NCBI GenBank assembly: GCA_946530565.1
Contig: CAMNAE010000008.1
Span: 1 to 15,873 of the forward strand
Source of the DNA: an uncultured Oscillibacter sp.
GTDB lineage: Bacteria > Bacillota > Clostridia > Oscillospirales > Oscillospiraceae
Direction of reading: 5' to 3'
Length of the DNA stretch: 15,873 nucleotides
Shown here: positions 8,717 through 15,347 of the stretch, piece by piece
How positions within the stretch are numbered: the stretch's first letter is position 1
Layout of the letters: each line of letters starts with the position of its first letter
The notes under the pieces: generated by a model
Told to the model about the DNA's origin: nothing
What the model saw: only the letters and a program-made list of their open reading frames with translations
The model's database searches: none
Made by a program: the position numbers and the translations under genes

Positions 8717-10096
8717 ATGAGTGATGTGATCGCGGCGCTCTCCACGGCGCCGGGAATTGCGGGCATCGGGATCGTGCGCGTTTCGGGCGAGGGCTGCTTT
8801 AAAGTGTGCTCTCGGGTCTTTCGCCCCGGCGGCGGGCGGAGCTTCGAAGATCTTTCGCCGCGGCGGCTGTATCTCGGGACGGCGCTGGACGCCGCCGGCC
8901 GCCCGATCGACAGATGCATGGCCGTCCGCTTCGTCTCCCCGCACAGCTATACCGGCGAGGACGCCGCCGAGTTCCACTGCCACGGCTCTCCGGTCGTCCT
9001 GCGCGAGCTCCTCTCCGCGCTCTTCGCCGCGGGCGCACGGCAGGCAAGAGCCGGCGAGTTCACCGAGCGCGCGTTTTTCTCAGGCCGCATGGACCTCACC
9101 GAGGCGGAGGCGGTCGGGGACCTCATCCACGCCGCATCACCCGCCGCCGCGAGAAACGCGCTTGCTCAGCTGGGCGGAGCGCTGCGGCGGAGGCTCGCTC
9201 CGATCGAGCAGAAGCTGCTCGATGTCTGCTCCCGCTTTTACGCGGTCGTCGATTACCCGGACGAGGACATTTCGGACGTGCAGCCGCAGGAGATCGCCGC
9301 GGCGCTCGATTTTGCCGAGGCGGAGCTGACGGCGCTCATCGGCACTGCCCGCAGCGGACGGCTCATCAAATCAGGTCTTCCGACCGTGCTTCTGGGAAGG
9401 CCCAACAGCGGCAAGAGCGCGCTTTTCAACCGCCTGGCCGGGTTCGACCGCGCGATCGTGACCGACATCCCCGGTACGACGCGCGATACGCTCGAGGAGA
9501 ACGTGCTCGCCGGCGAGACGCTGCTGCGTCTTGTCGATACGGCGGGACTGCGGGTCAGCGGCGACGCGGTGGAGCGGCTCGGCGTCGCGCGCAGCGAGCG
9601 CGCGGCGGAGGAGGCGGAGCTCGCGCTCGTGCTGATCGACGCGGCCGCAGAGCCGACCGACGAGGATCTGCGCGCGCTGCGCCTGGCCGCCGGGGCGCCG
9701 AAGTACATCCTGCTGCGCTCCCGCTGTGACCTGTGCGAAAAGCCGACGGCGCTCCGGATCCCGCCGGAATGCCCCGCGCCGCTCTCCGTCATCCGCGTGT
9801 CTTCCAAAACAGGCGAGGGACTGGAGGATCTGAAGGCCCTGCTCTCCTCATTCACCGAAGACGCGCTCGCGCACGCGGAAGGTCAAAATTTGACCGACGC
9901 GCGGCAGGAGGACGCCTCCCGCCGCGCGCTCGCGGCGGTCAGACGCGCGAAGGATGCCTTCGCGGCCGGCTTCACGCCCGACGCGATCCTGACGGACGCC
10001 GAGGAGGCGCTCAGCGCGCTCGGCGAGCTTGACGGCAGGACCGCGCGCGAGGAGATCACGGCCGAGATCTTCTCGAAGTTCTGCGTGGGGAAATAA
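8717..10096 (+). CDS. mnmE: tRNA uridine-5-carboxymethylaminomethyl modification GTPase MnmE
   Basis: 459 residues, standard length. With MnmG, MnmE modifies U34 of tRNAs reading two-codon boxes. The N-terminal folate-binding domain opens IAALSTAPGIAGIGIVRVSG (about 5-24); the helical domain carries FTERAFFSGRMDLTEAEAV (115-133). The inserted G domain has G1 GRPNSGKS (227-234), the conserved TDIPGTTRD (249-257) and G3 DTAG (274-277). The C-terminus ends FCVGK with the conserved cysteine C456. The G4 motif is unusual: SRCD at 335-338 in place of NKxD. The start ATG at 8717 has GGACGGAGG 5 bases upstream; an open frame extends much further upstream but is antisense to the aminotransferase. mnmG, often adjacent, is not in the window. 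The stop codon abuts the structured repeat. Confidence 0.96.
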   Translation: MSDVIAALSTAPGIAGIGIVRVSGEGCFKVCSRVFRPGGGRSFEDLSPRRLYLGTALDAAGRPIDRCMAVRFVSPHSYTGEDAAEFHCHGSPVVLRELLSALFAAGARQARAGEFTERAFFSGRMDLTEAEAVGDLIHAASPAAARNALAQLGGALRRRLAPIEQKLLDVCSRFYAVVDYPDEDISDVQPQEIAAALDFAEAELTALIGTARSGRLIKSGLPTVLLGRPNSGKSALFNRLAGFDRAIVTDIPGTTRDTLEENVLAGETLLRLVDTAGLRVSGDAVERLGVARSERAAEEAELALVLIDAAAEPTDEDLRALRLAAGAPKYILLRSRCDLCEKPTALRIPPECPAPLSVIRVSSKTGEGLEDLKALLSSFTEDALAHAEGQNLTDARQEDASRRALAAVRRAKDAFAAGFTPDAILTDAEEALSALGELDGRTAREEITAEIFSKFCVGK

Positions 10097-10290
10097 TACT
10101 GATTTCCAATAAAACGCTTGAATTTCAAGCGTTTTAAGCGCAGCGCTGCTGCGCTGTGCGAGGCTGACGCCTCGCGCGAAATCAGTATTGCACGGCTTCT
10201 TCAAGGCGCCTCGGCGCCTTTGCCTGTGAGCTATTTTAGCTCACAGGCAATCAAACGATTATAAATCGTTTGATTGAAGATTAGTATAAG
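10096..10290 (+). repeat. Structured dispersed repeat, copy A (two three-armed domains, MITE-like ends)
   Basis: 195 bases starting at the last base of the mnmE stop codon. Domain 1: the stem AATACTGATTT (10095-10105) pairs with 10179-10189 and encloses three hairpins: 10111-10121/10125-10135 (11 bp), 10137-10144/10148-10155 (8 bp) and 10158-10164/10169-10175 (7 bp). Domain 2: TCTTCAA (10198-10204) pairs with 10274-10280 and encloses 10205-10210/10213-10218, 10221-10233/10237-10249 (13 bp) and 10249-10260/10264-10275 (12 bp; shares one base). The first 21 bases and the reverse complement of the last block (10263-10283 to 10287 region) match at 17 of 21 positions. A second copy lies at 15154-15347. 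I do not recognise the family. Confidence 0.85.
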
Positions 10291-13193: not shown

Positions 13194-15116
13194 ATGAGTC
13201 AGAACGAGACGGCCCCCAGAGGGGGCAAGCGTGCCGCGGGCGGCGCGGGCGGCGGCGCGAAGGTCGCCGTCGGAGCGCTCGCGGCGCTGGTGCTGCTCGG
13301 TGCCGGCGGGTATCTCGGCCTTTGCGCCTATGCCAGCGGCAGCGACACGATCTATCCCGGCGTCAGGGCCAACGGCGTGGATCTCGGCGGCATGACCGAG
13401 GCGCAGGCCGAGGCGTATATCCGCCAGGAGGCGAAGGTCGACGAGGGCACCGTGGTCGATTTGACCGTGAGCCTGCCGGACGGCGAGACGATCACACGCG
13501 CGCTCAGCTACGACGACCTCGGCGGCGCCACGCTCGACGCCGGCAAGGCCGCGTCCGCGGCGTTCGCGGCCTGCCGTGAGGGCGGCTTCCTCAGCGCGGG
13601 AAAGCGCTATCTCGACGCCCGCGGCGGCAGGATCGACGTGGAGGACGCCGCGCTCACGCTCGACGATCTCGGAACGGCGGCAAAGGAGCTCGCGGACGAG
13701 CTCTCCAAGAGCGCGGCCGAGCCCGAGTACACGATCGACGATGAGGAGATCCGCGTCCATGTGGGCGACAAGGGCTACAGCGTCTCGGCCTCCGAGCTCG
13801 AGTCGGCCATCCGCACGGCGCTCGAGACCGAGGGCGAGGGCGCGGGTGTCGCCGCCGTCGAGGCAAAGACGGTCGACGTCGGCTCCGTCGACGCCCAGAA
13901 GCTCTACGACAGCATCGCCGCCGAGATGCACGACGCCGTCTATGACACCGCGACCGGGCAGATCGTCCCGGAGCAGACCGGCGCCCGCTTCGACGTCGCC
14001 GAGGCGCAGCGCATGCTCGACGCCGCCGCGCCGAACAGCGATGTGACGATCGACATCGAGATCGTCTACCCCGAGGTCACGGCCGAGAAGCTCAAAGCCA
14101 TGCTCTTCCGCGATGTGCTCGGCAGCGCGACGACGAATGTCGGCGGCACGGCCGCGCGCAAAAACAACGTCAAGCTCGCCTCCTCGTCGTTCAACGGCTA
14201 TGTTTTGAACCCCGGCGACGTCTTCGACTACAACGCGACCGTCGGCCAGCGCACCGCGGCGCGCGGCTACCAGGCGGCGCCCGCCTACGTCCAGGGTGAG
14301 ACGGTCGATGAGATCGGCGGCGGCGTCTGCCAGCCCTCCTCGACGCTCTATTTCGCCTGCCTGCTCGCGAATATGGAGATCACCGAGCGCTATCCGCACC
14401 GCTACGCGCCCTCTTACATCGAGTGGGGCATGGACGCGACGGTCTCCTGGGGCGGCCCGAACTACCGCTTCACCAACAACAGCAAGTATCCGGTCAAGAT
14501 CGAGACGAACTACTCCGGCGGCCAGCTCACGATCAAGCTGATCGGCACGAAGACCGACAACACGACCACCAAGATGACCCACAAGACGCTCTCGCAGACG
14601 AACTGGACGACCGTGTACCAGGAGGACGCCTCGATCGCGCCGGGCACCGAGAAGGTCAAGACGACGCCCTACACCGGCTACAAGGTCGAGAGCTACAAGA
14701 CGATCTACGCCGCCGACGGCTCCGTGATCTCCTCGAAGCTCGAGGCCGTGAGTGACTACAAGGTGCGCAACAAGGTGATCCTGCGTGCGCCGGGCCAGCT
14801 CCCGCACGACGGCATCGATCCGATGAAGGAGCCCGTGCCCGCACCCGAGACGCCGCCGGTCGATCCCGAGGCGCCCGACACCCCGGTCGAGGCAAACGTC
14901 CCGCCGGCTCCTCCCGCGCCTTCGACCCCGCCGGCTGAAGTCACGCCGCCGGCCGAGCCGACGCCGCCGGCTGAAACGACGCCGCCCGCCGAAACGACGC
15001 CTCCTGCCGAGACGCCGCCCGCTCCGGCTGAGAGCGCACCCGCCGAGCCGGCCCCGCCGGCGGAGGGCGGCTCCGGAGACTCGTTCGAGACGGAGTTCGT
15101 CATCGTCGACGGCTGA
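13194..15116 (+). CDS. VanW family / G5-like cell-envelope protein
   Basis: 640 residues from ATG 13194, which has AAGGTGA 7 bases upstream (an in-frame ATG at 13149 has no site). A Gly/Arg/Lys-rich cytoplasmic head is followed by one membrane anchor (about 24-45). Residues about 53-300 hold two YoaR-type peptidoglycan-binding-like segments, the first opening IYPGVRANGVDLGGMT (53-68). The VanW domain (about 308-452) contains ATTNVGG (312-318), LNPGDVFDYNATVG (338-351), GGGVCQPSSTLY (375-386) with conserved C379, and FTNNSKYPVKI (426-436). A G5-like segment follows (about 462-532). The tail (about 547-624) is Pro/Ala/Glu-rich with hexapeptide repeats. It should sit outside the membrane with the tail spanning the wall; a peptidoglycan-related role is inferred. 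VanW occurs in some vancomycin clusters, but this genomic setting is not one. Confidence 0.9.
   Translation: MSQNETAPRGGKRAAGGAGGGAKVAVGALAALVLLGAGGYLGLCAYASGSDTIYPGVRANGVDLGGMTEAQAEAYIRQEAKVDEGTVVDLTVSLPDGETITRALSYDDLGGATLDAGKAASAAFAACREGGFLSAGKRYLDARGGRIDVEDAALTLDDLGTAAKELADELSKSAAEPEYTIDDEEIRVHVGDKGYSVSASELESAIRTALETEGEGAGVAAVEAKTVDVGSVDAQKLYDSIAAEMHDAVYDTATGQIVPEQTGARFDVAEAQRMLDAAAPNSDVTIDIEIVYPEVTAEKLKAMLFRDVLGSATTNVGGTAARKNNVKLASSSFNGYVLNPGDVFDYNATVGQRTAARGYQAAPAYVQGETVDEIGGGVCQPSSTLYFACLLANMEITERYPHRYAPSYIEWGMDATVSWGGPNYRFTNNSKYPVKIETNYSGGQLTIKLIGTKTDNTTTKMTHKTLSQTNWTTVYQEDASIAPGTEKVKTTPYTGYKVESYKTIYAADGSVISSKLEAVSDYKVRNKVILRAPGQLPHDGIDPMKEPVPAPETPPVDPEAPDTPVEANVPPAPPAPSTPPAEVTPPAEPTPPAETTPPAETTPPAETPPAPAESAPAEPAPPAEGGSGDSFETEFVIVDG
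14928..15017 (+). repeat. In-frame 18-bp repeats coding PPAETT-type hexapeptides
   Basis: Five consecutive hexapeptides (residues 579-608 of the VanW protein): PPAEVT, PPAEPT, PPAETT, PPAETT, PPAETP, with looser PAPAES/APAEPA/PPAEGG units after. The DNA units differ at synonymous positions, so the array is not freshly expanded. It probably forms an extended wall-spanning stalk. Confidence 0.8.
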
Positions 15117-15153
15117 ATATCATGTACCATGCCCCCTGAGCGCGAAGGCGTTC

Positions 15154-15347
15154 ATACTGATCTCCAATAAAACGCTTGCATTTCAAGCGTTTTAAGCGCA
15201 GCGATGCTGCGCTGCGCTTATCTGTCGTCTCGCGCGAAATCAGTATTGCACGGCATCTTCAAGGCGCCTCGGCGCCTTTGCCTGTGAAAAAAGAAGCCCA
15301 CAGGCAATCAAACGGTTTTAAATCGTTTGATTGAAGATTCGTATAAG
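15154..15347 (+). repeat. Structured dispersed repeat, copy B
   Basis: 194 bases, same orientation as copy A and roughly 85-90% identical by eye. Outer stem 1: ATACTGAT (15154-15161) with 15239-15246. Its hairpins: 15169-15178/15184-15193 and 15195-15202/15206-15213, with the third arm (about 15214-15236) mostly lost by substitution. Outer stem 2: ATCTTCAA (15255-15262) with 15331-15338. Its hairpins: 15263-15268/15271-15276, TGCCTGTG/CACAGGCA (15279-15286/15299-15306) with an A-rich tip quite unlike copy A, and an AATCAAACG-type stem near 15306-15332 that carries one A-to-G change relative to copy A. It lies 37 bases after the VanW stop. Confidence 0.85.

Follow-up and report, generated by a model that had tools for sequence, protein, structure and literature searches.

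What is the strongly folded unit at the end of mnmE, and why does it lie exactly there? The unit occurs in a stretch of 15,873 nucleotides from an uncultured Oscillibacter sp. (hereafter the window), which also holds a second copy (copies A and B, Table 1). A sequence-only reading had described it as a repeat of two three-armed domains in series; this description stands, but the inverted ends, the TNA duplication, the position on a stop codon and a mechanism had been missed. Terminal inverted repeats, a TNA target duplication and the stop-codon position together point to a transposable element. With good confidence we regard copy A as a MITE, belonging to a folded family found in part of one genus, with a bias towards stop codons, a transposase acting in trans and a fold that serves mobility. 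A known RNA family is ruled out: Rfam gave 0 families at gathering score in the window, and a permissive scan of six loci bearing the element yielded sub-threshold matches only. Cargo of a phage or plasmid is ruled out as well, by the absence of copy A from 50,697 phage and 72,556 plasmid records and of one end pattern from viral contigs.

Table 1. Features of the two element copies and the host gene in the window.
Feature	Position	Strand	Basis
mnmE (host gene)	8717..10096	+	NCBIfam MnmE models match through the last residue, 499/499; start from the MSDVIAAL reading
Left target duplication TAA, the mnmE stop codon	10094..10096	+	same letters as 10287-10289
Copy A, element proper, 190 bp, TAC...GTA (TACTGATTTC...GATTAGTA), TAA on either side	10097..10286	+	53 aligned copies; rlmH and mnmE empty sites
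Domain 1 closing stem (11 bp), 5' strand, with left inverted end TACTGAT; pairs with 10178-10188	10096..10106	+	fold; covaries between species
Arm 1	10110..10136	+	fold
Arm 2	10137..10155	+	fold
Arm 3	10156..10177	+	fold
Domain 1 closing stem, 3' strand (internal GAAATCAGTAT)	10178..10188	+	fold
Inter-domain linker	10189..10197	+	unpaired in the two-domain fold
Domain 2 closing stem (6 bp), 5' strand; pairs with 10275-10280	10198..10203	+	fold; covaries
Arm 4	10204..10219	+	fold
Arm 5	10221..10249	+	fold
Arm 6	10250..10274	+	fold
Domain 2 closing stem, 3' strand	10275..10280	+	fold
Right inverted end TTAGTA	10281..10286	+	conserved end among copies
Right target duplication TAA	10287..10289	+	read from sequence
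Copy B left flank TCA, no longer the same as the right flank	15152..15154	+	
Copy B, 189 bp, off any stop codon; upstream frame ends at 15116	15155..15343	+	
Copy B right flank TAA	15344..15346	+	

The near-complete pairing of the unit was borne out, as positions 10096-10287 fold into two stems with three arms each (z = -15). The minimum free energy of copy A is -112.4 kcal/mol, compared to a mean of -53.9 (sd 3.9) for shuffled sequences, none of which (0 of 200) reach it. The layout is close to the one first proposed: an 11-bp stem closes arms of 12, 8 and 9 bp (claimed as 11, 8 and 7), a linker of 9 rather than 8 nt follows, and a 6-bp stem closes arms of 6, 13 and 11 bp (the last claimed as 12). 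The unit had correctly been placed by mnmE, but it begins on the TAA stop codon itself and not past it. A second unit near 15154 does exist, although at 89% identity "near-identical" was slightly strong; copy B (15154-15344) has a damaged third arm and z = -7, again with 0 of 200 shuffles reaching its energy. Upstream of copy B, positions 14923-15012 hold tandem 18-bp repeats encoding the Pro/Ala/Glu-rich tail of a VanW/G5-domain protein.

Of 51 copies, the 42 belonging to family I were folded as two unconstrained halves, and the nine of other types were left out. Domain 1 came out three-armed in 35, domain 2 in 30 and both in 27. In many copies a single wheel closed by both ends equals or exceeds the two-domain fold in stability, and the two-domain form is thus not the sole possible fold. 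The junction between the domains (10186-10197 in the window, and its counterparts in relatives) is among the best-conserved parts of family I, with the variants GTATTGCACGGC, GTATTGAACAAC, GTATTGACAAC and GTATTGTACGGC, and is perhaps a protein-binding or single-stranded site.

Further copies, which the sequence-only reading had proposed to look for, are present both in the same genome and in relatives. With the 195-base query we found nine matches of at least 155 bases in the genome from which the window comes, an assembly of 306 contigs that totals 1.83 Mb and is 69% complete. Three of the nine are found at the edge of a contig or close to it (C213, C51 and C239), so further copies were probably lost in assembly. 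A covariance model built from seven of the own-genome copies matched at least 18 of the 86 genomes of the genus, own genome included, with up to 30 candidates scored in each genome and a few of the weaker matches being other element types (G034a, G119a and family II). Family II, identified through its linker, is present in 11 of the 86. Across the order, three of 147 genomes have a match including our own, i.e. two of the 146 others, and no match was listed in nine genomes from other genera of the same family. The named members of the genus in public records are Oscillibacter and Dysosmobacter; a pattern scan of GTDB genomes gave 72 matching stretches, e.g. in Oscillibacter valericigenes An890 and in Oscillibacter and Dysosmobacter MAGs, not every one of which carries the copy A element.

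Two more distant copies deserve mention. The one in G185, from another family of the order, has the same layout of two three-armed domains with other arms. It is flanked by TAA on either side; the left TAA terminates 165 open codons and GGAGG stands after the right one, so this copy also lies on a stop. The full-length element of G146 has TAA on both sides, only 14 open codons upstream and a single wheel as its default fold. Compound arrangements were seen too. Copy G050a is abutted by another folded unit, which ends in ...CAACTGCGTTGACTATA (L033, reverse strand, upstream of 1672), copies G016e and G016f (L079 and L080) look like chimeras of family I and this ...CAACTGCGTTGACTATA unit, and in L122, L134 and L135 (G117) elements are nested or fused together, with internal TGATACT ends. 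Short elements with like ends and matching TNA flanks were also found in a record titled Alistipes sp. and named as a Bacteroidota MAG (G125; L196, L216, L225 and L259), which could be real cross-phylum spread or a mis-binned contig.

The exact ends were read from copies placed in one orientation and from the flanks of relatives. The element runs from TAC to GTA and has T-N-A on either side. Both ends could be read in 53 copies, namely 33 of family I and 20 of another family that shares these ends. Left out were twelve copies whose ends were unclear, truncated or of another type (G016e, G016f, G107a, G107b, G034a, G119a, G117a, G025b, G049d, G049e, G039a and G028d), two lacking the right end (L111 and L116), two own-genome copies of which one is cut by a contig end (L003) and one has lost its 3' end (L009), own-genome fragments (L010, L011, L012 and L020), a truncated G028 copy (L034), and end matches that were degenerate, compound or not part of an element (L112, L114, L115, L117-L119, L122-L125, L129, L130, L134 and L135). 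TNA was present at the left in 51 of the 53 and at the right likewise in 51, and all three flanking bases were identical in 41. The middle base of the TNA, for which shuffling predicts 21.4 matches, matched in 44 copies, a number reached in 0 of 5000 shuffles. Duplicated TNA flanks are the mark of a target duplication, and hence of an element that has moved as DNA; that it is mobile is very likely. The flanks are TAA and TAA in copy A but unequal, TCA and TAA, in copy B.

Copy A thus combines the traits of a MITE: it is 190 bp long, contains no transposase gene (its longest wholly internal ORF has 48 codons), and has inverted ends, a target duplication, dispersed copies and empty sites. Its terminal inverted repeats, TACTGAT... 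and ...ATTAGTA, are short and imperfect, with six of the seven terminal bases complementary. Across the family the inverted ends (TACTRAT...) recur with the TNA duplication, and the fold is kept as the arms change.

Empty sites were sought at two genes. RlmH was found in 79 of the 86 genomes, and of 30 loci fetched the gene end could be read in 27. Directly after the rlmH stop, G028 and G118 carry the element, and the other 25 loci have none there; G029 (CATAAA TAA GGAG) and G007 (CATAAG TAA GGAG) show the empty site with a single target. Compared with five other copies in G118, a genome whose copies are 91-98% identical and evidently recent, the G118 copy shows 93-96% identity, but only 82% to the G028 copy, which in turn is 90% identical to another copy in G028. 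Judged from these identities, two independent insertions probably took place at this one stop codon, a pattern that gene conversion within genomes could mimic. For mnmE, matches were likewise obtained in 79 of 86 genomes, and 30 loci were fetched, one of them the window's own. All 29 relatives have a protein ending in FCVGK and no element at the stop; as these relatives are distant (best 56% identity in this part of MnmE), they represent the usual state of the site and not its exact ancestor. Two of the mnmE loci (L384 and L391) hold a further, unrelated match.

Stop codons hold far more copies than would be expected if TNA sites outside genes were used at random, and these copies are mostly in sense orientation. 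In 43 of the 53 copies the left TNA reads TAA or TGA, and in 30 of these 43 it closes at least 60 in-frame codons, our test for a stop, which was applied to the other strand for antisense cases. Among TAA and TGA triplets in the flanks, 458 of 2312 (20%) pass the same test (Fisher P = 4e-12). Altogether, 35 of the 53 copies coincide with the final codon of a long open frame, 30 in sense and five in antisense orientation; in two of the five antisense cases (G000c1 and G049c) the frame is putative, and one of these two frames looks spurious. No copy (0 of 53) was found on TAG, which is not a TNA. Family I occurs mostly on TAA, family II mostly on TGA. Copy B and G146 run against the rule, as both fail the stop test.

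A crude ORF model assigned just 13 of the 53 copies to stops, where 11.5% would be expected (P = 0.006), which taken by itself counts against the pattern. This low figure arises because long spurious frames beat true ones in the model, and for that reason the frames were checked against protein families instead. Out of 31 frames submitted, 27 matched a family (24 sense, three antisense), while those of L084, L032, L071 and L128 had no family match. Five of the 35 stop frames were not submitted (G000c1, G049c, G028b, L106 and L121), and one submitted frame is outside the 35 (G029a, truncated at a contig end, with 45 codons). The match reaches the protein end in MnmE (499/499), ArgS (521/521), ArcA (409/409), RlmH (134/135) and RecR (163/165); other matched frames encode SecG, RsmA, CbiQ, prephenate dehydrogenase, an FtsX permease, acyl-CoA dehydrogenase, aspartokinase, argininosuccinate synthase and a GerA protein. 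The 27 of 53 family-backed stop copies exceed the expected 11.5% (P = 2e-12), an expectation that is rough since the ORF model both mis-calls genes in GC-rich DNA and supplies the site counts.

A later set was obtained from the family II search, which gave 38 matches and 30 loci, seven of the latter already counted and six with unclear ends (L310, L311, L322, L331, L334 and L335). Of the 17 copies used, 12 lie on stops, 11 sense and one antisense. The ends in this set were picked partly by matching flanks, so that the flank identity in 17 of 17 is not independent evidence; the stop count is unaffected. Pooling both sets gives 47 of 70 copies on stops, 41 sense and six antisense (P = 2e-7).

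Could selection alone account for this bias? The element would then hit any TNA, insertions within genes would be purged, and sense copies on stops would be the ones best tolerated, or even slightly useful in the 3' UTR. Such a filter must act to some extent in a gene-dense genome, and the insertion sites indeed show no motif beyond TNA, no other position exceeding 0.81 bits. On a crude count, however, intergenic TNA sites outnumber stop sites by about 7.7 to 1 (675 and 88), and the rlmH stop has seemingly been hit twice independently. Furthermore, a MITE with similar ends in the MAG RUG14223 (G126) passes the stop test in only two of 15 copies, with 60 and 63 codons, against 47 of 70 for our element (P = 2e-4); composition, gene spacing and other properties may differ between these genomes, yet the comparison indicates that TNA choice alone does not produce the bias. 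Only the RUG14223 rows of the control count were used; the rest (10 of 23 on a stop) overlap counted copies, some of them on both strands. We give selection acting by itself an appreciable chance, short of an even one, and consider the bias to be probably a preference for gene ends combined with selection against other insertions; that stop codons are actively chosen is plausible. Somewhat less probable, and offered tentatively, is the more specific proposal that insertion is steered and oriented by the termination of transcription or translation rather than by DNA beyond the TNA, with the double three-arm fold as a substrate conserved across families of the order.

What, then, maintains the fold? 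Arm sequences differ between relatives while the fold stays the same, and covariation across the closing stems, another expectation of the sequence-only reading, is seen among relatives' copies. With its own partner the domain 1 closing stem has -9.45 kcal/mol, compared to -5.84 (sd 0.68) with shuffled partners, and 0 of 10000 shuffles reach it. This test used fixed windows and one copy per genome from 13 genomes, the window of G103a being visibly misplaced. For the domain 2 closing stem 0 of 5000 shuffles reach the observed pairing, by fold-defined strands only; this is a biased test, as the stem strands are taken from the folds themselves. Alignments with mixed orientations or misplaced arms were kept out of the conclusions.

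Covariation between species, the very stable fold right after the stop codon and the sense orientation of 41 of the 47 stop-codon copies would all suit a functional structured RNA of 3' UTRs, spread by transposition and kept for the host through effects on mRNA stability or processing. If selection acted on the sense RNA, G-U would be expected to outnumber A-C in the stems. Within five groups (40 copies), stem substitutions to G-U and A-C were equally common (41 and 43, P = 0.91; groups range from 15:7 to 5:10), so that inserted copies show no sign of upkeep as RNA. Sense-strand RNA upkeep after insertion is thus ruled against, and the folded transcript suggested earlier finds no support in this one test. 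Moreover, damaged copies (copy B and G000c128) persist, and the element is absent at most of the relatives' loci that were read. A host role as RNA is accordingly very unlikely, and the fold is probably of use to the element itself, for its DNA and mobility, as inserted copies give no hint of upkeep as sense-strand RNA.

The same absence of strand bias in stem substitutions would fit arms whose pairing is restored during replication, as template switching corrects imperfect palindromes, the fold being a by-product, and single arms are indeed near-perfect palindromes. On the other hand, the domain 1 closing stem covaries between species although its halves are about 70 nt apart in copy A, with three arms in between, and most copies, like the element in another family of the order, retain the number of arms. 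Neither observation is readily given by local template switching, which we hold to be improbable, if a shade less so than the host RNA.

The preferred reading remains that of a MITE folded for its own mobility. A transposase acting in trans would cut at TAC and GTA and insert at TNA. As TAA and TGA are themselves TNA sites, insertion at such a stop codon would duplicate the stop and leave the upstream protein intact. Harmless targeting of gene ends is known mainly from large elements, e.g. Tn7. A 190-bp element that lies on stops, duplicates them and prefers one orientation would offer a natural route for inserting DNA at gene ends without gene breakage, and it gives core genes (mnmE, rlmH, argS and recR) a very stable structure in their 3' UTRs. 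It is also a clear case of a multi-arm fold outlasting its sequence, so that the part played by DNA structure in transposition can be put to the test. Should stop codons be actively chosen, this would be a safe-haven transposon, with the stop codon rebuilt at each such landing. For comparison, the large majority of insertion sequences are described as having low target specificity in a passage of PMC6382973. Titles and abstract openings in the open-access literature, a scope with most subscription journals outside it, gave nothing on this family or on stop-codon targeting by a MITE.

Candidate transposases were sought through the Pfam families PF13340, PF01609 and PF13359 in 18, 18 and 22 genomes, of which four, 14 and four had matches; G000 had none of the three, weak evidence of absence since this genome is incomplete. 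No fitting pair of ends was found in the 41 loci from the PF13340 and PF01609 searches (L136-L176), a scan in which some PF01609 matches had no locus and from which five PF13359 loci were left out. With no transposase found to carry these ends, mobility is read from the footprints. Long end pairs in Pseudanabaena, RUG14223 and relatives gave no clear IS.

IS5-group elements (IS1031 and ISL2 types) and PIF/Harbinger transposons make a 3-bp TNA or TWA target duplication. Our element shares the TNA duplication with the IS5 group, which presumably points to enzymes of that group, although no transposase carrying its ends was found through the three Pfams tried. Repeats with similar ends and TNA on both sides occur in Pseudanabaena sp. 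lw0831 (TACCAATTCTC ends) and in RUG14223 (TACTAATT ends), but their bodies differ from that of our element. The RUG14223 MITE is about 160 bp long (TACTAATTATCATTAAAAC...), with 36 end matches in one genome (L178-L181, L185, L192, L197, L201, L205, L207, L212, L222 and others), and its TNA flanks are identical in 13 of 15 copies. Matching flanks were rarely recovered in Pseudanabaena (G124; L249, L252, L253 and L260-L280), where many short, strongly folding repeats have TACCAATTCTC ends next to TNA, with 37 end matches in one genome against three for a control pattern and no parent IS recognised; some enclose two very long hairpins (L260).

REP/REPIN and BOX sequences are, like our element, intergenic, palindromic stem-loop repeats; the 3-bp target duplication sets the element apart, as REP elements are not known to make one. 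RUP and Correia, which are of IS630 type, duplicate a 2-bp TA, whereas here the middle base of the TNA is duplicated too (44 of 53). Together with MITEAba12 and Nezha they are nevertheless the closest in general build, as these bacterial MITEs are likewise short and dispersed, lack a transposase gene, have inverted ends and a target duplication, and give strongly folding transcripts. Unlike them, our element is without a parent IS found, and what distinguishes it from these MITEs is its TNA duplication combined with a position that often occupies stop codons exactly, mostly in sense orientation, and the conserved layout of two three-armed domains.
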